Part shown: one piece after another, positions 2,122 to 63,969 of the stretch | Layout: each line of letters starts with the position of its first letter | Position numbering within the stretch: position 1 is the stretch's first letter | Source: Pontibacter coccineus | Lineage (GTDB): Bacteria > Bacteroidota > Bacteroidia > Cytophagales > Hymenobacteraceae | DNA length: 64,000 nt | Reading direction: 5' to 3' | Assembly (NCBI RefSeq): GCF_030546575.1 | Contig: NZ_JAUOTN010000010.1 | Coordinates: 1-64,000 of the forward strand | Notes under the pieces: generated by a model | What the model saw: only the letters and a program-made list of their open reading frames with translations | Databases searched by the model: none | Told to the model about the DNA's origin: nothing | Translations under genes and position numbers: made by a program

Positions 2122-2988
2122 ATGAAGAAGTATCTGCTCAGTTTTTTGGCCCTTGTTTTATGCTTCGCACTAAGTGAGCAAGCCGCCGCCCAGATCAAAT
2201 TGCCGCAGGCCAGCCCTGCCGCTATGGTAAAACAAACCATCGGACTGACTGAGATAACGGTGCGCTACCATGCACCGGGTGTTAAAGGGCGACAGATCTT
2301 CGGATCGCTTGTGCCTTATGGTAAAATCTGGCGAGCTGGTGCCAACGAGGCTACGCTGATCACCTTCGAAGACGATCTATTCCTGAACCACGAACGTGTT
2401 CCGGCAGGTACTTACTCTTTCTTTATTCTGCCAGAAAACGAGACGGAATGGAATATTGTGCTGAACAAAGACACGACGCTTTGGGGTCTGGAAGGTTACA
2501 GTGAACTAAATGACGTGGCATACCTGCGGGTAACACCAACTAAAATTCCTTTCCAGGAAACATTGCAATTTGCCTTCAGCGACATCAGCACCAACACGGG
2601 TACGTTGAATCTGACCTGGGAGAATTCAAAAGTGTCAATCAGTATTGAAACAGAAATCGAGAAGAAGGCGCTGGCAAACATCAACAAGGCTTTGAAAGCA
2701 GCAGCTCCAGATGACTGGTATACCTGGGCACAGGCTGCCGATTACCTGACCTCACGCAAAGACCAGCATGAGAAGGCCTTGGAATACATCAACAAGTCCA
2801 TCTCCATAAAAGAGAATTTCTTTAACAATTGGGTGAAAGCCAGGCTGTATGCCTTGAACAGAGAATACCAGGTAGCGGCTAACTTAAGTGCGAAGGCCAT
2901 GCAATTGGGACCGAAAGAGCCGGAAAGCTATCAGACGTATGCACGGGAAATCGAGTCGGCGTACAATGAATGGAAAAAGCGCAGGTAA
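2122..2988 (+). CDS. DUF2911 domain protein with C-terminal TPR-like region
   Basis: The 288-residue product begins with a clear signal peptide (MKKYLLSFLALVLCFALSEQ, cleavage near AAAQ). Residues about 25-165 match the DUF2911 family as I know it: a PQASPAA start, the VRYHAPGVKGR segment, a WRAGANEAT motif and a PAGTYSFFILP strand. Residues about 180-285 hold two or three TPR-like helices (KALEYINKSISI). DUF2911 proteins are common periplasmic or secreted proteins of Bacteroidota and their biochemical role is unknown. The gene stands alone, with its own promoter and a shared bidirectional terminator with the convergent receptor gene. Confidence 0.85.
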   Translation: MKKYLLSFLALVLCFALSEQAAAQIKLPQASPAAMVKQTIGLTEITVRYHAPGVKGRQIFGSLVPYGKIWRAGANEATLITFEDDLFLNHERVPAGTYSFFILPENETEWNIVLNKDTTLWGLEGYSELNDVAYLRVTPTKIPFQETLQFAFSDISTNTGTLNLTWENSKVSISIETEIEKKALANINKALKAAAPDDWYTWAQAADYLTSRKDQHEKALEYINKSISIKENFFNNWVKARLYALNREYQVAANLSAKAMQLGPKEPESYQTYAREIESAYNEWKKRR

Positions 2989-3008
2989 CACAGGTATAGC
3001 AAAAAAGA

Positions 3009-3045
3009 GCGGGGCTCCGGTAACAAACGGAGCCCCGCTTTATTT
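3009..3045. terminator. Bidirectional intrinsic terminator
   Basis: GCGGGGCTCCG (3009-3019) pairs with CGGAGCCCCGC (3028-3038). Downstream there is a T-rich tail on the plus strand, and an A-run at 3001-3006 serves the minus strand. It sits between the convergent DUF2911 and TonB-receptor genes. Confidence 0.85.
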
Positions 3046-3049
3046 TTGC

Positions 3050-5479
3050 TTAAAAGCGGGCAATGAAACGAAGATTGAGACGACGGCCTGTCAGGAAATT
3101 AGGTATAGCGTAAGTCAGGTTATTCACGTCCGTGACGTAGCTGTAGGAAATGCGGTTCTGCGCGTCGATGATGTTGAGTACTTCCAGGCCAATCCAAAGG
3201 CTCTCCAACGATACTTTCTTTCGCTCCGTCAGGTCATCGCCCAAGGCAATGAGCTTCGAAAAACCAATGTCCACGCGCTTATAGGACTTTCCTGAAAAGG
3301 CATTGCGGAAATCCGGACGGTTAGGCGGGCCGAAGGGCAGCCCACTACCATACACTGCGTTCAGGTACATCCGCACAGTTGGGGTATCGGGCAGGTGGTC
3401 TTGAAAAAACACGCCAATGTTTACCAGTTGGTCTGTCGGACGGCGCAAATAACCCCGATCCTGACTTCCTATTATCTCACCCGAACTGTTATAGACCAGA
3501 CTGGAGTCGCCCTGCACGTTCTCGCGCGTCTGCATCAGACCCAAGCTCAACCAGGACTCCGCTCCAGGTATAAACTCCCCGTTCACCCGCACATCTATAC
3601 CTGCTGCGTAGGCCTTGGCGTTGTTCTGTCCATAATAGCGCAGTCGTACATTATCCAGATCATAAGGTACCACATTGGTCATGTGTTTGTAATAGGCCTC
3701 GGTCGTCAGCTTAAAGTCGCGGTCCCAGGCTTTGAACAGGTAGTCGCTGCCCACGACAGCATGCAGGGAGCGCTGGGCTTTCAGATCGGGGTTTAGCTCA
3801 CCCTGGAAGTTGCGCAATTCCCGGTAAAAGGGCGGTTGGTAGTAAAGACCGACAGCTGCTTTAAAAGAAAGGTCGGGATTATGGCGGGTGATAAAGGAAT
3901 ACTGCACCCGTGGCGTGATCGTCAGCTCGTTGTTATAGCTCCAGTAGCTGGCCCGGAGACCATACGTGATCGTTTTGAGCGAATCCAACTCGTAGGTATG
4001 CTGCACATAGCCGTTGTAACGCTGTGTGTGTAGGCTTACTTCAGAATCAAGCTGGTAAGCCATGGTCACATAATCGGAGGAATCCACAAAACCATATTCA
4101 GCCAGTTGGTCGTTGATGCGCTCCAGACTGGCCTTGGCTCCGGCCAGCACGGTGCTGCGGGAACTCAGCCGCCAGGTAGTACGGCTCTCAGCTGCCAGTA
4201 CCATCGCCATCAGAGCATTGCGGGCATGATCAAACTGACTGCCAATGCCCCGATCACGCAGGCATTCGCCCTTATCGTTGCGACCGAGCGTGTTTACGTC
4301 GCACAACCGGTACAAGGCCTCTATATCCCGAAACTCCCGCTCCAGTGAGTGGACACCCGACACAATGAATTCTGTCAGTAAATTGTCTGATACCTGATGG
4401 CTTAGGTTAGCTCCTGCCTGGTAGGTATCGTATTCCATGTTTTCTTGTCCATCGTATTCAACTAGCAGCCGGAGAGGCGCCTGTCGGGTACCGAAGGTCG
4501 TTGTTCGGGTCTGTGGCTTTACCCGGTAATTGTTACGGGCATAGCTCCCCAACAGTCCCAGTGTCGTGCGCTCCGGCTCTTTGCCCAGATCAAAGCTCAG
4601 GTATACCTGTCCGTCAGTAAAAGTAGGTCGGTACTCCCCGTCTACCTGCAGCCCCTGCAACATGTACCTGCTATTCTTGTGGCGCAGGCCCATCAGGTAT
4701 GAGATGCGCTTGTTCTTGGACGCCTCCTCCAGGTGGATGGCACCACCGGTAAGACTGCCGGTCACAGAGCCGGCAAAGTCCGTCGGGCGTTTGTATTGGA
4801 TGTTGAGCACCGAAGACAATTTATCGCCATACTTGGGCTGCCAGCCCCCGGAGGAGAACTCGACATTGGCGACCAGATCAGGGTTGACAAAGCTCAGACC
4901 CTCTTGTTGCGCAGCAGAGATCAGAAAGGGGCGGTAAATTTCGATGCCGTTGACGTAAACCAGGTTTTCGTCGTAGTTGCCACCTCGCACAGAGTAGGTC
5001 GAGGACAGTTCGTTGTTGCTGGTAACGCCAGGCAGCGTAGCCAGAATCATGTTAAAGTCGCCGAAAGCGGACGGCAGGTTTTTGGTGAGTGTCGGATCCA
5101 GGCGGGTGACGCTGACTTGCTCGCGGGTGTCGTCCTCGCGTTTGCCGCGCACATCCACCTGTCGCAATTGCTGCGGATCGGCTTCTAATATAAAGTCGAG
5201 CACCAGCTCCTGCCCTGTCTCGAGGCGCACAGCCCGCTCCTGCTGCTTGTAACCGAGGTAGCGCACGACTAGCACCAAGTCTTCAGCAACTGGTACCTTC
5301 AGGCTATACCTGCCTTGGGAATCGGTTTGAACGCCAAGGGTACGGCCCTGCACCCCTACCGTCGCCATTTCGAGTGGCTGGCGATTTTGGTCCAGAACCG
5401 TACCCTTTATCATTCCCTGCTGTGCAAAGACACCTGCTGGCAGCAGCATCAAGAGCCATACCGCAAGATATCGGTGCAT
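3050..5479 (-). CDS. TonB-dependent receptor with carboxypeptidase-regulatory-like domain
   Basis: An 809-residue outer-membrane receptor. It has a signal peptide (LAVWLLMLLPAGVFAQ), then a CarboxypepD_reg-like domain (GTVLDQNRQPLEMATVGVQG, about 22-100). A plug region follows at about 115-230 (RLDPTLTKNLPSAFGDFN, SVRGGNYDENLVYVNGIEI), then a long beta-barrel ending in an aromatic residue (RFIARF). Such receptors use TonB/ExbBD energy to import large or scarce ligands. Nothing in the sequence tells the substrate, and no SusD partner is adjacent, which argues against a polysaccharide-utilisation locus. It ends in the shared terminator and lies 21 bases downstream of rpe, with which it may be co-transcribed. 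Confidence 0.88.
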   Translation of the reverse strand: MHRYLAVWLLMLLPAGVFAQQGMIKGTVLDQNRQPLEMATVGVQGRTLGVQTDSQGRYSLKVPVAEDLVLVVRYLGYKQQERAVRLETGQELVLDFILEADPQQLRQVDVRGKREDDTREQVSVTRLDPTLTKNLPSAFGDFNMILATLPGVTSNNELSSTYSVRGGNYDENLVYVNGIEIYRPFLISAAQQEGLSFVNPDLVANVEFSSGGWQPKYGDKLSSVLNIQYKRPTDFAGSVTGSLTGGAIHLEEASKNKRISYLMGLRHKNSRYMLQGLQVDGEYRPTFTDGQVYLSFDLGKEPERTTLGLLGSYARNNYRVKPQTRTTTFGTRQAPLRLLVEYDGQENMEYDTYQAGANLSHQVSDNLLTEFIVSGVHSLEREFRDIEALYRLCDVNTLGRNDKGECLRDRGIGSQFDHARNALMAMVLAAESRTTWRLSSRSTVLAGAKASLERINDQLAEYGFVDSSDYVTMAYQLDSEVSLHTQRYNGYVQHTYELDSLKTITYGLRASYWSYNNELTITPRVQYSFITRHNPDLSFKAAVGLYYQPPFYRELRNFQGELNPDLKAQRSLHAVVGSDYLFKAWDRDFKLTTEAYYKHMTNVVPYDLDNVRLRYYGQNNAKAYAAGIDVRVNGEFIPGAESWLSLGLMQTRENVQGDSSLVYNSSGEIIGSQDRGYLRRPTDQLVNIGVFFQDHLPDTPTVRMYLNAVYGSGLPFGPPNRPDFRNAFSGKSYKRVDIGFSKLIALGDDLTERKKVSLESLWIGLEVLNIIDAQNRISYSYVTDVNNLTYAIPNFLTGRRLNLRFIARF

Positions 5480-5500
5480 AGAGGATGTTTAGGTTTGAAA

Positions 5501-6154: not shown

Positions 6155-6158
6155 GAAA

Positions 6159-6211: not shown

Positions 6212-7852
6212 TTAGAGTCTGACAAAGCGCAGGGTAGCGTTTCTGCTATTGGAACTCACCTGGCAGAGGTAGATGCCTTTTTTGAGAAGGGAAGGTCTGA
6301 TATTGAGCGTTTGTACCGCTTGATTTGCTGGCAGTAGCTGGGAGTGGACCAACTTACCGGCCGTATCATAGAGTCGGGCTATTGCATGCTCCTGCTGCCA
6401 GTTCTCGTCCATATGCAATACAATTGGCTCTTCCGACACGGGATTAGTAATGCTGACACCAATCGCCTGTTCGTCGGCCAGACCGGTAACGAGCCGGGTA
6501 TAAGTAGGTATGCCGTACCCAATGGTGTTGTTGGGGTTGTTGTAGTTGCTCCCCAGTTGACGCATCAGTTCCAGCAATTCCATGTTAGTGAGCTTTGGGC
6601 GGGCCTGCCAGATGCAGGCGACCATCCCCGCCATGATTGGTCCTGAGAAAGAGGTGCCACTGGAACGACCTAAGTTGCCTGAAGAAGACAGCACGTATAC
6701 CTGCTGCCCCATCGCCACTACATCCGGTTTTAGTCTTTGATCGGCCGTGGGACCCACTGAACTGAAGATCGCCTGTACGCCAAGCGAGTCCACGGCGCCC
6801 ACGGTGAGCACAGAGTCGGCATCGGCGGGTGCGGAAATATAGCGCCAGGCTTTATTGCCCTCGTTGCCGGCGCTCGTCACGACCAGCATACCGGTAGCGG
6901 CAGCCAGATCGGCTGCGCGGGTAATGATGGTGGTGTTGCCGTTGAGCTCGCTGTAGGTATAGCTGTAAGAAGGCGCATCGAACGAGGTATAGCCGAGTGA
7001 AGAATTGATCACATCTACCCCGGCACTATCGGCAAACTCAGCAGCCAGTAGCCAGTTCACCTCCTCAATATTATGCTCAGTGGTCGCATCTTCTGTTCGG
7101 AACAGGTAATAGTCGGCTTTGGGGGCTGTTCCCACGATGCGGCCTGGCTCATAAGCAGCCATCGTGGATAGCACCGATGTGCCATGCTGACTGTGCCCGT
7201 AAACGTCTTTCTTCTTGCCTACAAAGTCATAAGTACCCTTTAACTGACCATTCTGGAAAAGGTGTGAGAAAGCATTGATGCTGTTCACGCCCGGAAAACC
7301 GGCGTCGAACACGGCAATGGTAATACCTTCACCCTGGTAGCCAGCCGCATGCAACTCAGGTATACCCAGCATGTTGGACTGGTGGAATGAGGGACCAAAA
7401 TAAGAAGCGTCGAAAGAAGCGCTGGCAAGCTTTAAACTGTCGTTGGATTGCGTGCCTTTCTTGCCGGAAGTTGCTGTAGGCAAGCGGTTGAGTTGTTGGG
7501 CTCCTTTTACGTAAGCAAGCGTCTGCAACTCGGCCAATTTTTCAGGAGAGCATTGCACGATAGCTGCATTGAACCAACGGGAGGTATAGAGCACCTTCGC
7601 GCCCGATGCCTTCAGCCCGCTCACATAACTTGGGTTAACAGGCAGGTCACGAACGGAAAGCGCTATACCCTGCTTGCTCCGGCGTTCGATCGCCTTGGCT
7701 GAAAGGTATAGCGCTGGTTGTGCTACCGTAAAAGGAGAATTATTCTTATCAGTGAAGTAGATCAGATGCTTCTGCTCTGTGCCGCCAGGCCCCTGCGCCT
7801 TTGCAGAAAGGGCTAGTAGCAGGAGGCAGACGAACATGGTCAGAGATCGCAT
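6212..7852 (-). CDS. Secreted S8 (subtilisin-like) serine peptidase with T9SS sorting domain
   Basis: A 546-residue subtilase. A signal peptide (MFVCLLLLALSAKAQ) precedes a prodomain-like region. The catalytic triad is intact: Asp183 in VFDAG, His223 in SQHGTSV, Ser401 in GTSFSGP, with the oxyanion Asn330 in TSAGN. The last 75 residues or so (ITNPVSEEP ... LLKKGIYLCQV ... RFVRL) look like a type A T9SS sorting domain, so the enzyme is probably exported through the Por/Spr machinery and surface-anchored or released. It is the last gene of a probable mnmA-lipoprotein-peptidase transcription unit, 8 bases after the lipoprotein gene. The substrate cannot be deduced. Confidence 0.92.
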   Translation of the reverse strand: MRSLTMFVCLLLLALSAKAQGPGGTEQKHLIYFTDKNNSPFTVAQPALYLSAKAIERRSKQGIALSVRDLPVNPSYVSGLKASGAKVLYTSRWFNAAIVQCSPEKLAELQTLAYVKGAQQLNRLPTATSGKKGTQSNDSLKLASASFDASYFGPSFHQSNMLGIPELHAAGYQGEGITIAVFDAGFPGVNSINAFSHLFQNGQLKGTYDFVGKKKDVYGHSQHGTSVLSTMAAYEPGRIVGTAPKADYYLFRTEDATTEHNIEEVNWLLAAEFADSAGVDVINSSLGYTSFDAPSYSYTYSELNGNTTIITRAADLAAATGMLVVTSAGNEGNKAWRYISAPADADSVLTVGAVDSLGVQAIFSSVGPTADQRLKPDVVAMGQQVYVLSSSGNLGRSSGTSFSGPIMAGMVACIWQARPKLTNMELLELMRQLGSNYNNPNNTIGYGIPTYTRLVTGLADEQAIGVSITNPVSEEPIVLHMDENWQQEHAIARLYDTAGKLVHSQLLPANQAVQTLNIRPSLLKKGIYLCQVSSNSRNATLRFVRL

Positions 7853-7860
7853 AATTAGTC

Positions 7861-11691: not shown

Positions 11692-11694
11692 TTC

Positions 11695-29536: not shown

Positions 29537-30475
29537 TTAATGCAAATCCTGCGCAGACAGATAGCGTTCAGCGTCAAGGGCGGCCATGCAACCCGAACCG
29601 GCTGCTGTTACGGCCTGGCGGTAGGTAAAGTCCTGCACATCGCCGCAGGCAAACACGCCATCAATGTTGGTTTTGCTTGTGCCCGGGATCGTACGGATAT
29701 AACCGTTTTCATCCAGGTTCAGGTAGTCAGCGAAAATACCGGAGTTTGGCTGATGCCCGATCGCCACGAAAAAGCCCTTTACAGGAATCTCGCGCAACTC
29801 GTCCGTTAGTACATTGCGCACACGCACTCCATCCACAGCGTTTTCACCCAGGATGTCGTCCGTTACTGCGTTCCACAGTATCTCAATGTTTTTGGTTTTC
29901 TTCACCCGTTCCTGCATAATGGTAGAGGCACGCATCTCATCACGACGCACGATCATGTATACCTTGCTGCAGATGTTGGCAAGATAAGTTGCTTCTTCAG
30001 CTGCCGTGTCCCCGGCGCCCACAATCGCCACATCCTGCCCACGATAGAAGAAACCATCGCAAACGGCACAGGCGCTAACCCCGCTGCCATTCAGGCGGGC
30101 TTCTGACTCCATACCCAACCATTTGGCCGAAGCACCGGTGGAAATGATCACGGTATGCGCTTCAATTACCTTCTGTTCGTCAATTGTTACTTTGTGCGGC
30201 TGCGAAGAAAAGTCCACGGCTGTCGCGATGCCATACCTGACGTCGGTTCCGAAGCGCTCGGCCTGGCGCTTGAAGTCCTCCATCATCTGCGGGCCGTTGA
30301 TACCGTCCGGGTAGCCAGGGTAGTTCTCTACGTCATTGGTGATGGTAAGCTGGCCACCGGGCTGCAATCCCTGGTACAGCACGGGGTTAAGTCCGGCACG
30401 GGAAGCATAGATAGCTGCTGTATAACCAGCGGGGCCTGAGCCGATAATCAGGCATTTTACTTTTTCTATTTCCAT
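29537..30475 (-). CDS. trxB: Thioredoxin reductase
   Basis: A 312-residue low-molecular-weight flavoenzyme that reduces thioredoxin with NADPH. FAD motif GSGPAGYTAAIYASRAGL (about 12-29), redox pair CAVC in SGVSACAVCDG (about 136-139), NADPH motif VGAGDTAAEEA, and the C-terminal FAD stretch GVFACGDVQDFTYRQAVTAAGSG. The length is normal. It stands between the M23 gene and the sigma-factor gene, all on the minus strand. Whether it has a private promoter is unclear: TATACTTG at 30512-30505 is one mismatch from consensus. Confidence 0.96.
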   Translation of the reverse strand: MEIEKVKCLIIGSGPAGYTAAIYASRAGLNPVLYQGLQPGGQLTITNDVENYPGYPDGINGPQMMEDFKRQAERFGTDVRYGIATAVDFSSQPHKVTIDEQKVIEAHTVIISTGASAKWLGMESEARLNGSGVSACAVCDGFFYRGQDVAIVGAGDTAAEEATYLANICSKVYMIVRRDEMRASTIMQERVKKTKNIEILWNAVTDDILGENAVDGVRVRNVLTDELREIPVKGFFVAIGHQPNSGIFADYLNLDENGYIRTIPGTSKTNIDGVFACGDVQDFTYRQAVTAAGSGCMAALDAERYLSAQDLH

Positions 30476-30596
30476 GTTATGTGAGGCTTATTCGAAATTG
30501 GTTGCAAGTATACAAAAAATATGATGCTCTGCCTGCATACTTCCTGTGTTAATTAGTGCAAACCCGGCAGACGGCAGGTGTCCTTTGCCGGAAATG

Positions 30597-30630
30597 CAAA
30601 GAGCCCTGACCTTTCGGACAGGGCTCTTTG
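30597..30630 (-). terminator. Terminator of the sigma-factor gene
   Basis: CAAAGAGCCCTG (30597-30608) and CAGGGCTCTTTG (30619-30630) form a 12-bp stem with a 10-base loop just after the stop codon. The T-run is short (TTTG), so it may act partly as a transcript-end stabiliser. Confidence 0.7.
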
Positions 30631-30646
30631 TAGTGATTTTGTGGGC

Positions 30647-31510
30647 TTAACCGAGGTAAGGCTTCAGTGCTTTGCTTCTGGAAGTATGACGCAGTCTGCG
30701 GATAGCTTTCTCCTTGATTTGGCGAACACGCTCACGGGTCAGGTTGAACTTCTCTCCGATCTCCTCCAGCGTCAGCGAATGCTCACCGTTCAGACCAAAG
30801 TAAAGCGTGATCACATCAGCTTCCCGTTTAGTAAGGGTAGAAAGGGCACGCTGCACTTCTTTGCGAAGCGAGTCGTTCATCAGACCTGTGTCAGGTGATT
30901 CTTCGTCTTCGTTCTCCAGCACATCCAGCAGGCGGTTTTCCTCACCCTGCACAAACGGAGCGTCTACTGATACGTGACGTCCGGAGATCTTGAGCGTGTC
31001 AACCACTTCTGCAGTTGTCAGTTCGAGCACCTCTGCGATCTCCTCAGGAGATGGTTCGCGCTCAAACTTCTGCTCCAGTTCAGAAAATGACTTTGAAATC
31101 TTGTTAAGAGAACCAACACGGTTCAGCGGCAGACGCACAATACGAGACTGCTCGGCAAGTGCCTGCAGAATAGACTGACGGATCCACCAAACTGCATATG
31201 AGATGAACTTAAAACCTCTTGTTTCATCGAAACGCTTGGCCGCTTTGATCAGACCCAGGTTTCCCTCGTTGATAAGGTCGCCTAATGATAGGCCCTGGTT
31301 CTGGTACTGCTTGGCCACCGACACAACGAAACGCAAGTTGGCTTTGGTCAACTTCTCAAGTGCAAACTGATCTCCCTCTTTGATTCTCTGAGCAAGTGAT
31401 ACCTCCTCATCCGGCGTAAGCAAATCGACTTTACCAATCTCCTGAAGGTACTTGTCCAGCGACTGGCTTTCGCGGTTGGTGATCTGTTTGCTTATCTTGA
31501 GTTGTCTCAT
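30647..31510 (-). CDS. rpoD: Primary RNA polymerase sigma factor (RpoD/SigA family)
   Basis: A 287-residue sigma-70 protein lacking region 1.1, as is normal for Bacteroidota. Region 1.2 reads [18 protein letters not shown]. Region 2 contains [34 protein letters not shown] and the -10-recognition part [14 protein letters not shown]. Region 4 holds [29 protein letters not shown], the helix-turn-helix for upstream recognition. It would direct transcription from the TAnnTTTG promoters seen in this window. It has its own promoter (TTG-N20-GAACTTTG) and a hairpin at the 3' end. Confidence 0.95.
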
Positions 31511-31584
31511 CAGAGTATGTTGTTATTACAAAAAATGTGAAAATCTTAATTCCGGGCTCGGAGTGGTAACATCAGAAAATCGCG

Positions 31585-31615
31585 CAAAGTTCTTACATTT
31601 TAAGATTAAAATCAA
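31585..31615 (-). promoter_or_regulatory. Promoter of the sigma-factor gene
   Basis: On the minus strand TTG (31615-31613), 20 bases, GAACTTTG (31592-31585). The -7 element has one mismatch to TAnnTTTG and the spacing is ideal. Confidence 0.5.
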
Positions 31616-31642
31616 GAAGCTTTTACGCCACGGCAAAACATA

Positions 31643-31690
31643 ATACTCCTGACGCCACTCCGCCTTATACGGAACGGGCATCAGGAGTAT
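31643..31690 (-). terminator. Terminator downstream of pnp
   Basis: ATACTCCTGA (31643-31652) pairs with TCAGGAGTAT (31681-31690), with further partial pairing inside. It begins 13 bases beyond the pnp stop codon at 31703. Confidence 0.7.
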
Positions 31691-31702
31691 AAGATTTTAG
31701 GA

Positions 31703-33847
31703 TTATTGTTGCGCTTCTGCGCCTGGCTTAGGAAGAATAGCCTTGCGTGACAGCTTAAACTTACCAGTTTTCTTGTCTACGTCGATCAGTTTCACCTTCA
31801 CTTCTTCGCCTATCTCCAGCACGCCGTCCATGGTCTCGAGGCGCTCGTGCTTGATTTCGGAAATGTGCAGCAAACCGTCTTTGCCTGCCATGAACTCTAC
31901 GAAGGCTCCGTAAGGCTGGATGGATTTCACTTTTCCAATGTAAACCTCTCCTATCTCAGGCTGTGCCACGATCCCTTTGATCTTGCTCACGGCACTGTTC
32001 ATAGATTCCTGGTTACTGGCGAAAATGTTCACATGGCCTTTTTCGTTCTTCTCTTCGATGATGATCGTAGCACCTGTGTCTTTCTGGATCTGCTGAATTA
32101 CCTTTCCGCCTGGTCCGATCACAGCACCGATGAACTCCTTGTCGATAACGATGTTGAATGAACGTGGCGTGTGCGGCTTGTAGTCAACGTTAGGTGAAGA
32201 TATGGTCTTGTTCATCTCATTGAGGATGTGAAGACGACCTTCTCTTGCCTGAGCAAGTGCCTGGCTCAACACATCGTGCGACAAGCCCTGTACTTTGATG
32301 TCCATCTGGCAGGCCGTGATACCTTTGCTGGTACCAGCCACTTTAAAGTCCATGTCACCCAAGTGGTCTTCGTCGCCCAGGATGTCAGAAAGAACAGCAA
32401 AATTGCCTGTGCTCTCGTCCGTGATCAAGCCCATGGCTATACCTGAAACGCCATCCTTAACAGGAACACCAGCATCCATCAGGGCCAGTGAACCGGCACA
32501 TACGGTCGCCATGGAAGAAGAACCATTAGACTCCAAAATGTCCGACACGATACGGATAGTGTATGGGTTCTCAGAATCTGCAGGGAGCACTTTCTTAAGC
32601 GCTCTGAGTGCCAGGTTACCATGACCGATCTCACGACGGCCAGGACCTCTGTTTGGCTTTACCTCACCTGTTGAGAAAGCTGGGAAGTTGTAATGCAGCA
32701 AAAACTTGTTGTATCCGGATACCATCGCACTGTCGATCATCTGCTCGTCTAGCTTAGTACCCAGCGTTACTGTAGTCAGAGATTGTGTCTCACCGCGTGT
32801 GAAAACGGCAGAGCCGTGCGTAGCTGGCAGGTAGTTGATCTCTGACCAGATAGGGCGGATCTCATTCAGCTGACGGCCATCTAGACGCACACGGTCATTG
32901 AGGATCATCTTGCGAACGGCGTCTTTCTCTACGTCGTGGTAGTAGGTCTTGATCAGGCCCATGTCATAGCCATGGTCCTCACCCAGCGACTCTACGAATT
33001 CATTCAACACAGCAGCGAAGCCTTCCTTGCGCTCAGACTTGTTGGCTCTGCCGCGCTTGGCAACTTCATAAGCCTTGTCGTAAGTGGCAGCGTATACCTT
33101 CTGACGCAACTCGTTGTCGTGTGTTTCGTGTGAGTACTCGCGTTTCTGCAGTTTGCCAACCATTTCGGCTAGCTCCATCTGCGCCTGGCACTGTACCTTA
33201 ATGGCTTCGTGTGCGAAAGCGATTGCTTCGAGCATCTCTTCTTCAGAAACCTCGTTCATTTCGCCTTCAACCATCGCCACGCTGTCGATTGAGCCACCCA
33301 CAATCATGTCGATGTCTGCGCTCTTCTGGTCAGAAGCTTTTGGGTTGATAACAAACTGACCGTCGATACGCGCTACGCGAACTTCAGAAATAGGTCCGTT
33401 GAAAGGAATATCAGAAACTGCCAGCGCTGCAGAAGCTGCCAGGGCGGCAAGCGCATCCGGCAAAATCTCAGCATCAGCAGAGATCATATTTATCGTCATC
33501 TGCGTTTCGGCATGGTAGTCGCCCGGGAACATGGGGCGCAGGATACGGTCTACCAAACGGGAAATCAGAATTTCGTAGTCAGAAAGGCGTGCTTCTCTTT
33601 TGAGGAAGCCACCCGGAATCTTGCCAGAAGAAGCAAACTTCTCCTGATAGTCTACAGAAAGGGGCAGAAAGTCAACTCCCTCACGGGCTTCTTTGTTAGA
33701 AACAACAGCTGCCAGTAACATGGTGTTACCCATTTTCACTACGACAGATCCGTCGGCCTGCTTGGCTAATTTACCAGTTTCAATAATGATCTCCCGGCCA
33801 TCCGGAAGAAAGATTGTTTTTGTGATCGCGTTTTGTGACATCTTCAA
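31703..33847 (-). CDS. pnp: Polyribonucleotide nucleotidyltransferase (PNPase)
   Basis: A 714-residue phosphorolytic 3'-5' exoribonuclease. Two RNase PH-like domains are evident (GRKxx-type [25 protein letters not shown] at the start; [28 protein letters not shown] in the second core). A KH domain follows ([19 protein letters not shown], about 555-615), then a C-terminal S1 domain ([27 protein letters not shown], about 625-695). It acts in mRNA turnover as part of a degradosome. It lies downstream of rpsO as in many bacteria, although a hairpin separates the two genes. Confidence 0.97.
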
Positions 33848-33942
33848 TTATTATTTTTTAGCATCAAATAGAACAGCGCTACCGTTTGCAGCCGCTGCTG
33901 GGGTACTGGCAAAGAGGAAGGGGAATATAAAGAGGAATAGAA

Positions 33943-33979
33943 AAAAATAGGGAATCCCTGTCAGAAATTCCCTATTTTT
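33943..33979. terminator. Hairpin between rpsO and pnp
   Basis: AAAAATAGGGAAT (33943-33955) and ATTCCCTATTTTT (33967-33979) form a 13-bp stem with A/T-rich ends suited to termination in either direction. It lies 9 bases past the rpsO stop. Confidence 0.8.
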
Positions 33980-33987
33980 CTATAAGC

Positions 33988-34263
33988 TTATTTACGGATA
34001 CCAAGCTCGGCGATGATCGCTCTGTATCTTTCAATGTCATTTTTCTGCAGGTAGTTCAGAAGTCTTCTTCTTTTACCTACCAGCTTAAGAAGACCAAGAC
34101 GAGTGCCGAAGTCTTTCTTATGAACCTTCAGGTGCTCTGTCAGATCAGCAATGCGCGTAGTGAACAGCGCGATCTGGCCTTCTGCAGAACCTGTGTCTGT
34201 TTTAGACTTGGTCAGGCTATGCTTTTCAAAAATTTCTTGTTTCGCTTCAGTAGTTAATTTCAT
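33988..34263 (-). CDS. rpsO: 30S ribosomal protein S15
   Basis: A 91-residue primary 16S rRNA-binding protein. Recognisable parts are [63 protein letters not shown] and the C-terminal [12 protein letters not shown]. The length matches the family (about 89). It is expressed from a TAnnTTTG promoter 57 bases upstream and ends at a hairpin ahead of pnp. Confidence 0.97.
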
Positions 34264-34319
34264 TGCGTATAAAAAATATCAATCTGTTATAATCAGTGGA
34301 TAGTTTCCCGTATAAGCCG

Positions 34320-34327
34320 CAAAGTTA
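34320..34327 (-). promoter_or_regulatory. rpsO promoter -7 element
   Basis: On the minus strand TAACTTTG (34327-34320) is an exact TAnnTTTG match. The upstream region is very AT-rich, but no TTG stands at 17-23 bases. Confidence 0.5.
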
Positions 34328-34380
34328 AATAAAATATCTATATTAAAAAACTTTTTGCAGCGAGTTATTTTGGCGCAGCG

Positions 34381-35808
34381 CTATATTTTGCTGCGCTTTA
34401 AACGGGTCATCAGTTTGCGCCAGAAGTCTATTTCGAGCAGGCTAGAGTCGTTCTGTGCCTGGTAGAGGAAGAACATGCCTATCGGCAGCAGGATGGCGTT
34501 CGCGCCCCACATTCCTGCCTCCACCGAGATCAGCCCCTCCCGAGCCCACTTCTCTCCCAGTATGCCCAGCACATACATCACGATAAAGAACATTATGGAA
34601 ATGATCACGGGTACGCCCAGGCCCCCTTTTTTAATGATAGCTCCCAGCGGCGCTCCGATCAGAAACATGATCACGATGGCGAAGGACTGAGTATACTTGC
34701 GCCATATCTCAATTTCGTAGTTGTTCGCGTCCCGGTTTAGCGTTGTCACACGCTCTCTGTAGCTATCCGTAAAGCTCTTCACGTTGCGGGCTTTATTGGC
34801 TGCTGTCAGCATGACGTCCGCCGTAATGGGTGGCAGTGTCTTTTTCTCATGCACAGAGTCTGGCAGCACTTTGGTGAGCGGCAAGCCGTTCTTCACCTGC
34901 CCCGTATCCGCTTTGAAATACATGTAAAACGGATCCACATTCGGGGCGTACAGCCGACGCTCCCGCGCACCGGAGTTACGCAGCGAGTCTGTCACCGACG
35001 TCAGCTGCCCGATGTTCTTCATCATCTTATTGTCTGAAAAAAGCTCTTCACGGGTGCGACCCAGCTCAAAAGACGCCAGACTGAAAATGATTTTGGTGGC
35101 ATCAAACTTTTCGCGCACAAACTGCTCTGATGAATTTCGGAATCCCCCGTTATTCTGATCGACGTAGGTATTGCCGCGGAACAATTCGAGAATAAGGTAA
35201 TTGTCATTGTATTCGGTATACATCTGACCCGAGTCAGCCAGTATCACGGTGGTGTTGTTGCCGCCCTTGGAGTGGTCATAGATCATGATGTCGCGCAGGG
35301 AGCGGCCATCGTTCAGTTTCTCGTTGATCTTGATGCTATAGCCAGGCAAGCCGTTGTAAAAAGCTCCTTCCTTGAAGTTCATAGCCGGCTTTTTCTGCCT
35401 GATGTCCCATAGCAGACTATAGGCCTTCAGGTTCGCCTTCGGAACCACGTAATTGTTGAAAAAGAAAGCCCCGATGGAAAGCGCGATCACAAAAAAGGCG
35501 ACAGGACGCAAAATACGCGGCAGAGCCACACCTGACGTTTTGATGGCAGTAAGCTCGTGGTGCTCCCCCAGCGTACCGAAGGTCATCAGAGCCGAAAGCA
35601 AAACTGCGAGCGGCAGTGCTACCGGCGCCATGTTGATGCTGAAATAAAACAGCAGCTCTGCAAAAACATCGTATCCCAGGTCCTTTCCTACCAGTTCATC
35701 AAGGTATTTGAGCATATACTGCGTGAGCAGAATAAACTCCACGATGGCAAACGTGAGGAAGAAAGGGCCGGCAAATGATTTAAGTATTAGCTTATCTAGT
35801 TTCTTCAT
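34381..35808 (-). CDS. LptF/LptG-family permease (YjgP/YjgQ)
   Basis: I use the ATG at 35808 (475 residues, MKKLDKLILKSFAGPFF). The open frame extends three codons further to a TTG. Transmembrane helices lie near 13-35 (FFLTFAIVEFILLTQYML), 60-85, 105-125, then a large periplasmic jellyroll-like domain (about 130-330). Three or so helices follow (FAIVIMFLIGAPLGAIIKKGG, VPVIISIMFFIVMYVLGILG). This is the architecture of the LPS-export permease subunits LptF/LptG, which with LptB extract LPS from the inner membrane. Which of the two it is cannot be told here. It has a promoter in the gap before it. Confidence 0.9.
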   Translation of the reverse strand: MKKLDKLILKSFAGPFFLTFAIVEFILLTQYMLKYLDELVGKDLGYDVFAELLFYFSINMAPVALPLAVLLSALMTFGTLGEHHELTAIKTSGVALPRILRPVAFFVIALSIGAFFFNNYVVPKANLKAYSLLWDIRQKKPAMNFKEGAFYNGLPGYSIKINEKLNDGRSLRDIMIYDHSKGGNNTTVILADSGQMYTEYNDNYLILELFRGNTYVDQNNGGFRNSSEQFVREKFDATKIIFSLASFELGRTREELFSDNKMMKNIGQLTSVTDSLRNSGARERRLYAPNVDPFYMYFKADTGQVKNGLPLTKVLPDSVHEKKTLPPITADVMLTAANKARNVKSFTDSYRERVTTLNRDANNYEIEIWRKYTQSFAIVIMFLIGAPLGAIIKKGGLGVPVIISIMFFIVMYVLGILGEKWAREGLISVEAGMWGANAILLPIGMFFLYQAQNDSSLLEIDFWRKLMTRLKRSKI

Positions 35809-35879
35809 GTGGGCCAATTGGCATGCGGGCGTCAGAAAACCCGGTTAATTTCTCTAACACCGGACTTTCAAAAATCGTG

Positions 35880-35887
35880 CAAAGATA
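35880..35887 (-). promoter_or_regulatory. Promoter -7 element before the LptF/G gene
   Basis: On the minus strand TATCTTTG (35887-35880) is an exact TAnnTTTG match, 71 bases ahead of the chosen ATG. Confidence 0.45.
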
Positions 35888-35908
35888 AGCCTTTGGAGCT
35901 AAGATGTG

Positions 35909-36310
35909 CTACCCTCCTACTATTTCACGCAATTTCTGTAGCAAGTGCTCCCATAGCTCTTCCAACTCTTCTTCGTCATCTTCCTCTGAGTAGTCGACCA
36001 CTTTCAGATACTGTTCCTGCGTGAGTTCACTTGATTCGATCGAGAAATCGATATAGGATGGGTCTGAAGGGTGAGTTTTGTCCTCATTCAGGAAAATGAA
36101 GCGCACAGAGCGATTTGTACGGTGGCTTGTCATCTCAACCCAATGGTTGCTGCCGTCCCAAAAGAAATTAAATAGCTTGTCTTCGTTTATGGAAACATCG
36201 TCACAGAACCACTGCGAAAGGCCACTCGGGGTGCTCAGGTATGGGTACAGCAAACGGGCAGATGCATTTATAGGGTACTCACGCACAAATTTCGTCTTGG
36301 TAGCTTTCAT
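35909..36310 (-). CDS. START/AHSA1-like domain protein
   Basis: A 133-residue protein of the SRPBCC (START-like) superfamily: KTKFVREYPINASARLLYPYLSTPSGLSQWFCDDV is the classic first strand and helices, followed by beta strands (WVEMTSHRTNRSVRFIFLN) and a long C-terminal helix with an acidic stretch (YSEEDDEEELEELW). Bacteroidota usually carry one short acidic member like this. Its ligand is unknown. It may bind a hydrophobic molecule. It lies upstream of the LptF/G gene on the same strand and divergently from the tRNA gene. Confidence 0.8.
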   Translation of the reverse strand: MKATKTKFVREYPINASARLLYPYLSTPSGLSQWFCDDVSINEDKLFNFFWDGSNHWVEMTSHRTNRSVRFIFLNEDKTHPSDPSYIDFSIESSELTQEQYLKVVDYSEEDDEEELEELWEHLLQKLREIVGG

Positions 36311-36402
36311 TATCTGTAGTTGTAAGTGACTGAGTAAGTATAGTATTAATTTCCGATTGGTTAAATATACAGAAATTAAAATATTTTTTTGTGCATCAAT
36401 TG

Positions 36403-36434
36403 TTGCTTTTTTTAAAACTTACCCCTTATATTTG
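36403..36434 (+). promoter_or_regulatory. tRNA-Met promoter
   Basis: TTG (36403-36405), 21 bases, TATATTTG (36427-36434): a full Bacteroidota consensus promoter whose predicted start lies just before the tRNA 5' end. Confidence 0.7.
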
Positions 36435-36445
36435 CACCACAATTC

Positions 36446-36519
36446 GGCGGGGTAGCTCAGATGGTTAGAGCGCAGGATTCATAACCCTGAGGTCGGCAGT
36501 TCGATTCTGCTCCCCGCTA
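36446..36519 (+). tRNA. tRNA-Met (CAT anticodon)
   Basis: A 74-nt cloverleaf. The acceptor arm GGCGGGG pairs with CCCCGCT, the D arm is GCTC...GAGC, and the anticodon arm holds CAT at 36480-36482. The T arm GGCAG-TTCGATT-CTGCT is intact. CCA is not encoded. From sequence alone I cannot separate elongator Met from the Ile-CAT species modified with lysidine. The initiator type is unlikely because the acceptor end is paired. Confidence 0.95.
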
Positions 36520-36523
36520 CAAA

Positions 36524-36553
36524 GCCCTGGATTTACATCCAGGGCTTTTTTTT
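36524..36553 (+). terminator. tRNA terminator
   Basis: GCCCTGGAT (36524-36532) and ATCCAGGGC (36537-36545) with a TTAC loop, followed by eight T. A strong Rho-independent terminator 4 bases after the tRNA. Confidence 0.92.
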
Positions 36554-36563
36554 GCCCTCATCC

Positions 36564-37835
36564 TTACTCCTTCTCAAATGACTTCAGCAGGATTCGCGGC
36601 TGAAAGTTAACCATCACCCACCCCCAGTCAGCGTAAGCCGATGCATCGCCTGGCTTGATCGCTGCCATCGAGCTGCCTGCAAACATACTGCTATACCCTA
36701 TGGAAAACTGAATCTGGTCGGAGTGCTTGTATTGGAGCACCGCATCCAGCTCAGAACCAAGGTACCTGTTGCTGGTGCCGGCGTGCGTTTCTGAAGCCCG
36801 AAGGTTTTTTGCCAGCGCGAAGTAGTGGTAGTCCAGCGAGAGGTTATAGCTGGCACTTGGGCTAAAGGTGGTCTTGAGGTAGTTATCGTGCAGCCCACCC
36901 TGCCGTGTGTCAGCCGGCACATTGATAAAGTAATCCATGAAGCCATAGTACTTATGGTTCGTGGCGTACAGGGTATTAAAGGATCGAACCTTATGCTCGT
37001 GTCCGGCCATACCTGACAAATAGGTGGTCCCTAACGTGAACTGGAAAGGCTGTAAGGTATAGGTCGCCTCTCCAACTGCCAGGTAGGCCGCTATCTTTTT
37101 CCCGCTGCCGTGTTCGCCCGATTGCCTGTAAAGCGAACCGTTAAATTGAACACGCTCATGCTTATAATTCAGGTCAAGCCCATACGTATGCCGGAAGTAT
37201 ACGCCTCCTACCGTATCAGGTCGTTGAAAGCCATCGCTGATATGCATGGCTGAAAGTGACAACTGTTCGCCTAACTGTTTCTTTGCCCATAGGAATCCCA
37301 GCACTTTGTAGTTGTTCATGCTGTAATGGGTGTCAAACAAGGCTTCTTTCTCCTGGTTAAAAGCACCGCCGGCATCTAAGCTTATACCTCGCCATCTTGC
37401 TTTAAGCACCATGCCATCGTGACTGCGTGCCTGCTGCACCCAGTCCACATTGCCCAGCAGGCGGTCATTGTTGTAAACGAACTCCTGCCGCCCAAGCCTG
37501 ACAGCAAACTTGTCTGATAGAGCAACCTCACCCCAGGCCTCGTGCATGGCTGTAGAGGGCACATCTTTTAAATGCACTTCATTCCCCCATACCCTGACGT
37601 CCTGCAAACTAAACCGCATCTGCACTTTATCCTGCTTATAGTCGAGCGTAAGCCTGGAGCGCTGGCTTACAAAGAAAGCTCCGTCCTGACCGTTTGGCAG
37701 GCTCTGGTATCCGTTGCGCCACTCAGCCCTGGGCCTTACCTGCGGCGTCAGGTATAGCTGCGCCCAAGCCGCCTCTAAGGGTAGCCACACCAGAATTGAT
37801 AGCAGCAGTAGTTTCCGTGTAAAACTTACTTTCAT
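36564..37835 (-). CDS. Alginate-export-type outer-membrane porin
   Basis: I use the ATG at 37835 (423 residues). A GTG two codons upstream is the alternative. The signal peptide is KLLLLSILVWLPLEAAWAQ. The mature part is a beta-barrel with the AlgE-like pattern QSRSRLTLDYKQDKVQMRFSLQDVRVWG-type strands, RLGRQEFVYNNDRLLGNVDWVQQARSHDG and YFALAKNLRAS, typical of the alginate_exp family (PF13372) as I know it. Such proteins form anion-selective channels. The real substrate is unknown. The leader of about 170 bases to the rplT terminator holds no second gene. Confidence 0.82.
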   Translation of the reverse strand: MKVSFTRKLLLLSILVWLPLEAAWAQLYLTPQVRPRAEWRNGYQSLPNGQDGAFFVSQRSRLTLDYKQDKVQMRFSLQDVRVWGNEVHLKDVPSTAMHEAWGEVALSDKFAVRLGRQEFVYNNDRLLGNVDWVQQARSHDGMVLKARWRGISLDAGGAFNQEKEALFDTHYSMNNYKVLGFLWAKKQLGEQLSLSAMHISDGFQRPDTVGGVYFRHTYGLDLNYKHERVQFNGSLYRQSGEHGSGKKIAAYLAVGEATYTLQPFQFTLGTTYLSGMAGHEHKVRSFNTLYATNHKYYGFMDYFINVPADTRQGGLHDNYLKTTFSPSASYNLSLDYHYFALAKNLRASETHAGTSNRYLGSELDAVLQYKHSDQIQFSIGYSSMFAGSSMAAIKPGDASAYADWGWVMVNFQPRILLKSFEKE

Positions 37836-39365: not shown

Positions 39366-41306
39366 TTAATTGTTCAGCATCTGAGCAATTTTAGACTGAA
39401 AGGTGGCAATGAACTCATCCACCGTCATCGTGCCCAGATCGCCTTCTCCGTGTTTGCGTACTGACACGGCCCCGTTTTCCTGCTCCTTCTCCCCTACAAT
39501 GAGCATGTAAGGCACCTTGCTCACTTCTGCATCGCGGATCTTACGTCCGATCTTCTCGTCGCGGTTGTCAACAAAACCCCGGATGTCATCCTGCTGCAGT
39601 CGGTCATATACCTGCTGCGCAAAATCCTGGTATTTTTCGGAGATTGGCAGGATGGCAAACTGCTCTGGGCTAAGCCAAAGTGGGAAGTTACCACCGCAAT
39701 GCTCAATCAGCACCGCTACGAAGCGCTCCAACGAGCCAAATGGCGCACGGTGAATCATCACAGGGCGGTGTTTGGCATTGTCAGCACCGATGTACTCGAG
39801 CTGGAATCTTTCTGGTAAGTTATAATCTACCTGAATAGTTCCCAACTGCCATTTACGGCCCAACGCATCTCGCACCATAAAGTCGAGCTTAGGTCCGTAA
39901 AACGCGGCTTCGCCCAGTTCGGTTACAGTGGTCAGTCCTTTCTCTGCGGCAGCCTCCACAATGGCGCTTTCGGCTTTTTCCCAGTTCTCGTCTGAACCAA
40001 TGTATTTGGCCTTGTTTTCCGGATCACGCAGGGAGATCTGAGCGGTATAGTCTTCAAAACCAAGTGCCTTGAACACGTACAGCACCAGGTCAATTACCTT
40101 AATAAATTCTTCTTTCACCTGGTCAGGACGGCAGAAAATGTGCGCGTCGTCCTGCGTAAAGCCACGTACGCGTGTCAGACCGTGCAGCTCGCCGCTTTGC
40201 TCGTAGCGGTACACAGTGCCGAACTCGGCAAAACGCACGGGTAACTCTTTGTAAGAGCGCGGACGGGTTTTGTAGATCTCGCAGTGGTGCGGGCAGTTCA
40301 TTGGCTTTAGCAGGAACTCCTCGTTCTCGTTCGGCGTCTTGATTGGCTGGAAAGAGTCAGCGCCGTACTTCTCGTAGTGACCTGAAGTAACGTAGAGCTC
40401 CTTGCTACCGATGTGCGGCGTTACCACCGGCTGGTAGCCAGCCTTTATCTGCGCCTTGCGCATAAACTGCTCGAGTCGCTCGCGCAGCAACGTACCTTTC
40501 GGCAACCACAGCGGCAAGCCCATACCTACCTTTTCAGAGAAGGCAAACAGTTCCATTTCTTTGCCCAGTTTGCGGTGGTCGCGTTTTTTGGCTTCCTCCA
40601 GGCGCTCCAGGTACTCGGTCAACTCCTTCAGTTTCGGGAAGGTGATGGCATAGATGCGTGTCAGCTGCTTGCTCTTCTCGTCGCCGCGCCAATAGGCACC
40701 GGCCACATTCATGAGCTTAGCAGCCTTGATGAAGCCCGTGTTCGGGATGTGCGGCCCGCGGCAAAGGTCCACGAAGTTGCCCTGGGTATAGAAGGTGATC
40801 GTGCCGTCTTCCAAATCCTGGAGCAGGTCAAGCTTGTACTGGTCGCCTTTTTCGGTGAAGTACTGAATGGCGTCGGCTTTTGAAACTTCCTGACGCACAT
40901 ACTCATTTTTGGCACGCGCCAGTTCCAGCATCTTCTGCTCTACTTTGGCAAAGTCATCCTGCGAAAAGGTTTTGCCCTCTCCCAGGTCCACGTCATAGTA
41001 GAAGCCATTCTCAACAGGCGGTCCGATGCCAAACTTTATACCTGGGTATAACTCTTCCAAGGCTTCTGCCAGTAAGTGAGCGGATGAATGCCAGAATGTA
41101 TTTTTGCCCAGATCGTCGTTCCATGTGAGCAATTGCACACTGGCATTTTCTTCTATAGGGCGAGACAGATCCCAAACGGAACCGTTCACCTTTACGGCCA
41201 GAACATTGCGGGCAAGTCCCTCGCTAATGCTGGTGGCGATCTCAAGGCCTGTTACGCCTTTCGAATACTGACGTACAGAGCCATCTGGCAAAGTGATGTT
41301 GATCAT
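39366..41306 (-). CDS. thrS: Threonyl-tRNA synthetase
   Basis: A 646-residue class II synthetase. The N-terminal TGS domain covers about 1-62 ([23 protein letters not shown]). The editing domain has the HxxxH motif in [13 protein letters not shown]. The catalytic core contains [44 protein letters not shown] and [18 protein letters not shown], with the zinc-binding Cys/His residues present. A C-terminal anticodon-binding domain follows ([17 protein letters not shown]). It lies between the TPR lipoprotein gene (20 bases upstream) and infC (78 bases downstream). Confidence 0.98.
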
Positions 41307-54137: not shown

Positions 54138-54332
54138 ATGCTACAGGTATAAATATTGGTACAAGCGGACACCAGCGTAAGCCTAAAATGATCGTCCACC
54201 ATAGGTCATCCTGGTTCTGGCGATCATACAGTCATCTACTCATCTGTACTTTAACAGTTGCTGGGCTCTCAAACCAGGAATCACAGGAATCAGGTATAGG
54301 TATAGCCAATCCTTAGGCGAATCCCTTTTACT

Positions 54333-60505: not shown

Positions 60506-60553
60506 GCGAAAACCTTGTGGCAAGGCTGCGTTTAAGGATGGTACCTATACCTT

Positions 60554-62152: not shown

Positions 62153-62349
62153 AGGTTGAAAGTTAGAGTTTTTAGGTGTTGGAGAGGGAAGGAATCTGAA
62201 ACCGAGCGGACAGATGTCAGTATGTTTTATCTGTGGTAACAGGCTAAAAACTTAAACTCCCTTTTAGGAGCACACTGATCTTATTTCGTTATAAAATGAG
62301 TAGTCAATGCAGCCTATACCACTCTTAAACTTTCTAACTCCCAAACTCC

Positions 62350-63429: not shown

Positions 63430-63528
63430 TAGGCGCCTGCTGCCTATAATACATAAAACCCATGCAAAAGTTATCAGCGATAGAAGCTGCCTAACAGCTT
63501 TTGCCTATACCTCCTCAACATTTCCGCT

Positions 63529-63536
63529 TATATTTG
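63529..63536 (+). promoter_or_regulatory. Promoter -7 element of the small membrane-protein gene
   Basis: TATATTTG matches TAnnTTTG exactly and ends 22 bases before the ATG at 63559. TTTG at 63500-63503 lies 25 bases upstream, slightly far. Confidence 0.5.
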
Positions 63537-63558
63537 CCTCTGCATAACGATATACTCC

Positions 63559-63969
63559 ATGACCATCCATAAACAGATTTCTTACCTCTACGCTTTTTTT
63601 GGTGTGTTCCTGCTGGGCTGTGGCGCTGTGGCCGTAGACGTAGCCGGCGAGCAGGCCCAAACCGCCCTCTTCACAGGTATAGCCGGTGGCCTGCTGGCGC
63701 TGGTGGCAGGTCACTTCCTGAACAGAAAACAGCGCTGGGGTTTCTTGCTCGGCACCGGCGAGGCAGGACTGCTCACGCTGCTGCTGGGCTGGCGCTCGGG
63801 CACCTATTTTATTCGCCTGCTGGAGATGGTGCAGGAAGCGCCGGAGCCCAACTCCACACACACCGCAGGTATGGCTTTTCTGCTAACAACGGCCATGCTG
63901 GTGGTTGCTTTGCTGACACTGGCCGTGTCCGTTATGTTCGCTAAACAGGTGTTTGCCGAGACAAAATAG
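63559..63969 (+). CDS. Small membrane protein of unknown function
   Basis: A 136-residue protein with four probable transmembrane helices: about 8-30 (SYLYAFFGVFLLGCGAVAVDV), 36-53 (ALFTGIAGGLLALVAGHF), 60-80 (WGFLLGTGEAGLLTLLLGW) and 102-128 (MAFLLTTAMLVVALLTLAVSVMF). The loop between helices 3 and 4 carries RSGTYFIRLLEMVQEAPEPNS. The overall plan recalls small TMEM14-like proteins, but the similarity is too weak for assignment. The frame has a consensus promoter and a composition normal for a gene. Confidence 0.7.
   Translation: MTIHKQISYLYAFFGVFLLGCGAVAVDVAGEQAQTALFTGIAGGLLALVAGHFLNRKQRWGFLLGTGEAGLLTLLLGWRSGTYFIRLLEMVQEAPEPNSTHTAGMAFLLTTAMLVVALLTLAVSVMFAKQVFAETK

Follow-up and report, generated by a model that had tools for sequence, protein, structure and literature searches.

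An eight-base word dispersed through Pontibacter coccineus and its dialects in related species: a pattern resembling DNA-uptake sequences

Why does one short word recur more than a hundred times, in both orientations, in 64 kb of bacterial DNA? The stretch concerned comprises the first 64,000 nucleotides of contig NZ_JAUOTN010000010.1 of Pontibacter coccineus (hereafter, the window, i.e., this whole stretch of DNA), and the word is the heptamer AGGTATA, together with its longer form AGGTATAG. The source genome (4.66 Mb) is here called G000; other G-numbers stand for the genomes compared and L-numbers for the loci. On balance, we consider it probable that AGGTATAG belongs, as the AGG dialect, to a family of words for self-recognition which work like DNA-uptake sequences (DUS).

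An initial annotation, based on a manual scan, had estimated about 105-110 copies of AGGTATA in the window (60 to 48). An exact count on both strands confirms the 60 copies on the plus strand and corrects the rest: there are 52 copies on the other strand and 112 in total, from a first copy at 2719 to a final copy ending at 63681. The expected number is 4.0, 10.0 or 22.1 under Markov models of order 1, 2 or 3, respectively, so that the claimed excess over chance is real. The order-5 model proposed as a check yields an expectation of 88.5, and is self-defeating because AGGTATA inflates its own 6-mers; hence, it is uninformative. The longer form AGGTATAG appears 61 times in the window versus 1.8 expected (order 2), and two related forms, CAGGTATAGC and AAGGTATAGC, appear 16 and 10 times. 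The features of the window are the following:

2719..63681, both strands (60 on +, 52 on -): AGGTATA, 112 dispersed copies (exact count)
4599..4608, 10413-10422, 56077-56086 and 58433-58442, no strand assigned: palindromic double form AGGTATACCT (exact search)
54292..54304, + strand: overlapping tandem form AGGTATAGGTATA (exact search)
39366..41306, - strand: thrS, the marker used for the tree and for the orthologous word comparison
30001..37000, no strand assigned: word-poor stretch, where 2 copies start versus 12 expected at mean density (count)
31703-33847: pnp, inside the word-poor stretch (NCBIfam)
3..1616, - strand: repetitive, surface-protein-like open reading frame (ORF) running off the window, without the word (judged by eye)

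Two local gaps that had been described, in the surface-protein gene at the start of the window (0 copies before 2719) and at about 30000-37000, are thus borne out.

The word extends to the genome as a whole, where AGGTATAG is found 4,844 times (2617 + 2227 on the two strands) and the reversed control word 96 times (57 + 39). In 440 kb of G000 (the window and 19 other stretches), 753 copies of AGGTATA stand against 79 expected, and 428 copies of AGGTATAG against 15 (both order 2). In these same 440 kb, one-mismatch neighbours are 3.4-fold over the order-1 expectation, with mismatches located mostly at positions 0, 6 and 7, less at 1 and 5, and a GTA centre almost intolerant of mismatch; the extended consensus from 750 copies is cAGGTATA[G>C>A]C, and positions further out carry little information. 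The double form AGGTATACCT is a minority form (16 pairs among 796 AGGTATA in 460 kb). The corresponding palindrome AACTATAGTT is commoner in G031, a species with another dialect: 106 overlapping pairs among 1161 AACTATA (400 kb, L162-L181). In 351 predicted ORFs (460 kb), the excess persists after shuffling of synonymous codons, another check that had been proposed: 291 copies of AGGTATAG were observed versus 18.1 +/- 4.3 (the top of 60 shuffles was 28). The word occupies five or six frames of the predicted ORFs, as well as intergenic DNA, in agreement with the claim that it lies in all frames and between genes; its density is 2.09 per kb outside the ORFs and 0.75 per kb inside them. Low-order counts, whole-genome counts and codon tests thus leave the original observation unrefuted.

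When the count is repeated in related genomes, AGGTATAG turns out to be one of several dialects which replace each other between Pontibacter species. Whole-genome counts of AGGTATAG, AAGTATAA and AACTATAG (the AGG, AAG and AAC words) divide 50 Pontibacter genomes into the following groups: (i) 12 with AGGTATAG; (ii) 18 with AAGTATAA; (iii) five with AACTATAG; (iv) two with two words; (v) two with odd variants; (vi) two with AAGTATAA at half density; and (vii) nine with none. AGGTATAG reaches 2823-5222 copies in its 12 genomes (G000, G003, G005, G009, G010, G011, G015, G016, G017, G029, G047, G048) and 173-833 in the remaining 38. AAGTATAA reaches 3326-7030 copies in its 18 genomes and AACTATAG 6288-8208 in its five (G018, G031, G038, G044, G046). 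Three genomes mix AAGTATAA and AACTATAG, respectively, at 4476 + 2002 (G033), 3911 + 2617 (G027) and 2125 + 6288 (G046). Other intermediate counts are, for AAGTATAA, those of G022 (2537), G020 (2246) and G007 (1201), all others being <=921; and, for AACTATAG, that of G043 (907), with <=476 elsewhere. The lowest AAGTATAA densities, calculated with rounded genome sizes, are 0.45 (G020) and 0.46 (G022) per kb, versus 0.69-1.47 in the other 18 genomes. None of the three words has a high count in G002, G007, G024, G025, G026, G028, G034, G041 and G045.

De novo scans of 7- and 8-mers in the 20-kb thrS neighbourhood of the 49 other Pontibacter genomes returned an AAGTATA- or AACTATA-type word at the top in 25 of the 38 non-AGG genomes, and AGGTATA with a z score of 7.8-10.9 in 11 AGG species. 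Since codon-structured words also reach z scores of about 8-9 in such 20-kb scans, the Pontibacter dialects rest on the whole-genome counts. As for the odd variants, CTATATA / ATATATAA is over-represented in G042 (L105, L221; GC 0.55 at thrS) and is perhaps a further dialect, while the GGTATA with variable flank of G037 is weak (z 8.7 in 40 kb) and the least secure of the words.

The dialects follow a FastTree phylogeny of thrS codons, a one-gene tree in which many deeper nodes are poorly supported. The 12 AGG species group in one clade (local support 0.986); a second clade, of seven species (support 1.0), unites the two mixed species with the five AAC ones. Among named records, the ThrS of the window is most similar to that of Pontibacter, the best-matching segments in P. 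mucosus, P. roseus and P. vulgaris sharing 89-93% identity. AAGTATAA is probably the ancestral dialect, because the species that carry it are scattered over the remainder of the tree. Conversion of words in place was considered and rejected: of the 69 G000 word sites aligned with species of the AAGTATAA dialect, just 4 have AAGTATAA there and, therefore, words of different dialects are mostly located at different places.

Beyond the genus, AGGTATAG does not exceed 212 copies per genome in 100 genomes from five other genera of the family (the top value is that of G105, where the reversed control has 146). Nonetheless, among 31 genomes of related genera, each sampled over 12.8-20 kb, six carry a strong dispersed word of their own: GGGGTAG (G119, G141), ACCTAGG (G081, G090), ACCTAG[GC] (G136) and GCTAGCC (G103). 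The 7-mer z scores of these six are >=11.9, those of the other 25 genomes are <=8.4, and the maximum in order-2 simulated sequence is 3.9-5.2 (24 runs). In the six loci the copies lie on both strands and all their 20-nt contexts are distinct. Aligned by eye, all the words, including those of Pontibacter, contain [CG]TA[GT]. A faint GGGGTAG is also seen in G175 (12 vs 2.4). Among 80 named Bacteroidota loci, clear dispersed words were present in three Pontibacter and one Hymenobacter, lower scorers not having been inspected singly; four high scorers from other families (L017, L042, L049, L062) proved on inspection to be local repeats.

Word sites are conserved in excess of their surroundings. 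In alignments of the thrS region of G000 to 11 other AGG species, the 8-mer at the word site is the same in 79 of 123 cases, versus 16-44%, depending on the species, for neighbouring 8-mers. A second comparison used phase-matched flank controls and more distant species, with p values from sign flips per site; as species share ancestry, comparisons within one site are not independent. Here, thrS words were kept in 38/66 cases for AGG (control 0.22; p 0.014, 12 sites), 28/63 for AAC (0.14; p 0.0001, 33 sites) and 30/79 for AAG (0.21; p 0.02), and comEC words in 12/27 for AAG (0.22; p 0.02). By target genome, words were kept in 25/45 cases in G039 (control 0.20), 77/110 in G023 (0.25), 25/60 in G021 (0.23) and 51/117 in G035 (0.25).

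Words are also scarce in some parts of the DNA. Three plasmid-like contigs of 10, 10 and 5.9 kb hold 3, 2 and 0 copies of AAGTATA (5 in 25.9 kb, a small sample), while thrS of the same genomes has 1.05-1.25 words per kb. The ORFs scanned on them are as follows:

L255, 5 of 10 ORFs scanned: TraG and TraM
L256, 4 of 8 ORFs scanned: transposase and AbiEii
L257, 1 of 4 ORFs scanned: none recognised

In G031, a capsule/exopolysaccharide-type cluster (L164, GC 0.37) has 10 copies of AACTATA in 20 kb, the mean being 58; and L157, a stretch of G000 with a low GC (0.38), has 12 AGGTATA in 20 kb. A stretch of G031 with efflux, VIT1 and ApbE genes (L168, G031:C1:1420001-1440000) contains 37 AAGTATA versus 23 AACTATA, has a GC of 0.50 versus about 0.45, and looks like DNA from an AAGTATAA species.

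Regarding the genes that might serve DNA import, the suggested search for comEC and dprA found both in 50/50 Pontibacter genomes, as it did a ComEA-like helix-hairpin-helix (HhH) protein (open frame 304-346). In G000, the ComEA-like protein scores 82.5 bits with the ComEA repeat model TIGR00426, over its cut-off of 53.1, and lies under the full comE cut-off; ComEC passes TIGR00360 and lies under the full ComEC/Rec2 cut-off. Internal stops in comEC are restricted to G009 and G022 (the open frame of G018, at 561, is shorter), dprA is broken in these same two genomes only, and the ComEA-like gene only in G022. The frame changes and stops were detected by tblastn (L215, L244 and L252 in G022; L245 and L246 in G009). 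As controls, 11/12 other genes of the thrS region are intact in G009, and 7/7 and 10/10 in G022 (compared with G036 and G039). Of the ORFs compared around comEC in G022, 2/7 and 2/10 are broken, namely comEC both times plus one short ORF each (153 and 190 aa). The chance that two genes would be disrupted in one and the same pair among 50 genomes is 1/1225, which argues that comEC and dprA serve one dedicated, dispensable pathway. To judge by these disruptions, transformation has apparently been lost in two separate lineages. The DUF5689 protein (PF18942) is found in 5/12 AGG, 6/7 AAC or mixed, 5/18 AAG and 5/9 wordless genomes, plus G022, in two sizes (open frames of about 413-450 and about 1,100-1,300 aa); in G000, a 409-aa DUF5689 protein adjoins a 281-aa ORF (L192, G000:C6:202899-203426).

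What could give rise to such words? An artefact of composition, codon usage or repeats, the kind of explanation that did apply to the four loci with local repeats, is already refuted here. Composition and codon usage are rejected by the codon shuffle (291 vs 18) and the reversed word (96 vs 4844), a mobile repeat by the five or six ORF frames and the unique contexts in six other genomes, and simulated sequence stays below the z scores of AGGTATA in the 11 AGG species. A hot spot of recombination would be self-erasing, and from precursors whose frequency does not exceed expectation a mutational bias would be unable to make a 50-fold excess. It is very improbable, too, that the word is a polar signal for recombination or segregation, such as Chi or KOPS (FtsK-orienting polar sequences). 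Short species-specific words are typical of Chi, the strand counts of the whole of G000 are unequal (2617 vs 2227, p 2e-8, contig orientation being arbitrary), those of G023 and G014 are likewise unequal, and within predicted ORFs antisense copies of AGGTATAG outnumber sense copies (170 vs 121, p 0.005). Relative to GC skew, however, the AAC word of G031 divides 597 vs 564 over 20 stretches of a single complete chromosome (p 0.35), and over 23 stretches of G000 the AGG word divides 415 vs 370 (p 0.12), with no correlation between word strand and skew across stretches. The rough balance of orientations reported in the initial annotation therefore holds approximately, although the totals for the whole of G000 differ by more than chance. 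A weak strand bias may exist, of about 53:47 and so well under that of a polar signal; in the absence of strong replichore orientation, a strongly polar signal is rejected, as the annotation had argued. Locally, L156 (G000:C7:1-20000) shows an imbalance of 7 forward vs 27 reverse copies.

HIP1 (highly iterated palindrome 1), a word of cyanobacteria, is found in and outside genes and resembles the Pontibacter words in its extreme abundance. By analogy, an orphan methyltransferase (or a repair system) might read the word, methylation-linked repair or regulation would select it, and dialects would correspond to changes in specificity. We find this unlikely. HIP1 has been linked to orphan methyltransferases (cited sections of PMC4390886; PMC, PubMed Central), and palindromes or near-palindromes occur among the words of other genera (GGCTAGCC, CCTAGG core). 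Against this, HIP1 is itself a palindrome (GCGATCGC), while AGGTATAG, AAGTATAA and AACTATAG are not; and the N6_N4_Mtase family (PF01555), present in 31/50 genomes, is missing from 12/37 word genomes, including four of the five AACTATAG genomes (G018, G031, G038, G044) and G003 and G011 of the AGG clade. Its distribution does not track the word, and PF01555 is rejected as the cause; the methyltransferase explanation is weakened by this and no more, because PF01555 was the sole methyltransferase family searched. The HIP1 paper (PMC4390886) makes no mention of Bacteroidetes, Pontibacter or Hymenobacter. We give a similarly low probability to the words being sites of an abundant nucleoid-structuring or replication-associated protein, selected at many places and drifting in specificity between lineages. 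The higher density outside ORFs (2.09 vs 0.75 per kb), the excess conservation and the graded tolerance at positions 0, 6 and 7, which resembles a protein binding motif, would suit such a protein. Nevertheless, nine genomes do without any of the three words, plasmid-like contigs and one capsule-type cluster hold few of them, no clear replichore pattern is seen, and well-known site-specific chromosome organisers have far fewer than several thousand sites. The density of the word lies, as had been noted, in the range of uptake sequences and HIP1; and the comparison supports uptake sequences as a better fit than HIP1 and than Chi or KOPS.

If the words act in uptake, Pontibacter would import free DNA by means of a pilus-independent machinery formed by ComEC, DprA, the ComEA-like protein and a putative outer-membrane receptor, which would prefer word-bearing DNA. 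Word-bearing alleles would then be imported and recombined more often, and the word would build up on both strands (molecular drive). A shift in receptor specificity would lead to the slow replacement of one word by another and, with it, to dialects and mixed genomes. The abundance of the words, their presence on both strands, dialects that follow the tree, a common core, mixed genomes, conservation and scarcity in mobile DNA are the pattern expected of molecular drive by biased uptake.

Several observations weigh against an uptake function. PF00437 (the type IV pilus/type II secretion ATPase) was found in 0/50 Pontibacter genomes, in a search with 13/14 controls positive that did not cover pilin families; therefore, no known class of uptake-sequence receptor (e.g., a ComP-type pilin) is expected in its usual form. 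DUF5689 was rejected as the receptor, since its presence in 22/50 genomes does not track the word. In the open-licence PMC literature, we found no report of DNA uptake in Pontibacter, nor any paper describing words of this kind in Pontibacter or Hymenobacter. The nine genomes without any of the three words have comEC and dprA free of internal stops; G009, with both genes broken, keeps an undiminished 5041 words, and in G020 the words are halved though the genes are intact. The excess conservation of comEC words is not significant in AGG (14/46 vs 0.19, p 0.09, 16 sites) or in AAC (12/28 vs 0.26, p 0.06). By target genome, excess conservation is missing in G020, with intact genes and halved words (29/126 vs 0.20), and in the word-bearing G012 (5/23 vs 0.21), little in G036 (10/41 vs 0.17), and still evident in G022, which has lost the genes (65/182 vs 0.17). 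To these may be added the unequal strand counts of the whole of G000, and a low-GC stretch of G031 (L178, 0.355) which is not word-poor (51 copies). No clean link is seen between the breakage of competence genes and a loss of conservation: G022 and G020 pooled give 5/21 vs 0.17 (p 0.28) and, once split, G022 keeps the excess and G020 does not. The gene-to-word link is weak and suggestive at best.

Pontibacter words share several traits with known uptake systems. Uptake-sequence dialects are best known in Neisseriaceae (PMC3630211) and Pasteurellaceae, both users of type IV pili. In Neisseriaceae, eight DUS dialects share a CTG core, the genome of S. muelleri holds two of them in near-equal numbers, and some genomes have none (cited sections of PMC3630211). 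Pontibacter is alike in having thousands of short words, dialects that track phylogeny, a common core, two-dialect genomes and wordless genomes; it differs in the length of the word (about 8 bases vs 10-12), in the core ([CG]TA[GT] vs CTG) and in having no pilus-type ATPase family. Because the pilus-type ATPase was looked for and not found, we do not file the words as DUS; they are probably a DUS-like word system with a pilus-free importer. The uptake signal sequences (USS) of Pasteurellaceae, whose uptake employs type IV pili, occur about once per kb, in both orientations and with lineage variants, and the words of Pontibacter are alike in this, the word itself being unrelated. The receptor predicted for USS is a type IV minor pilin (cited section of PMC12616744).

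As regards machinery, a further comparison is with Riemerella, also a member of the Bacteroidota. According to the cited sections, R. anatipestifer is naturally transformable without pilus homologues, and its transformation requires ComEC, DprA, ComF and RecA, along with HhH, DUF1343 and DUF5689 proteins and an outer-membrane partner, RA0C_RS04915 (PMC8459023). Transformation of R. columbina is competed by its own DNA and not by equal R. anatipestifer or E. coli DNA; k-mer counting in Riemerella gave A-rich words only, and no abundant dispersed word is reported in the cited sections (PMC7965970). Like Riemerella, Pontibacter has ComEC, DprA and an HhH protein and lacks the pilus-type ATPase; unlike Riemerella, it has an abundant dispersed word, and its DUF5689 protein, essential in Riemerella, is patchy.

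Whatever their function, about 3,000-8,000 copies of a word per genome, with dialect turnover within one genus, call for an explanation. Should uptake prove to be their role, tags of this kind had a separate origin in a different phylum, with a different import apparatus. Models of drive and dialect switch could then be tested directly on closely related species whose words differ, are mixed, are decaying or are missing, and the word would be a handle for finding the missing outer-membrane DNA receptor of Bacteroidota. In its widest form, a proposition for and against which we see equal weight, Hymenobacteraceae would own a pilus-independent, sequence-specific uptake system whose outer-membrane receptor recognises an 8-base word built on a [CG]TA[GT] core; repeated shifts in the specificity of this receptor would have given at least three dialects in Pontibacter and the words of neighbouring genera; mate recognition by a DNA word would then have evolved independently in this family.

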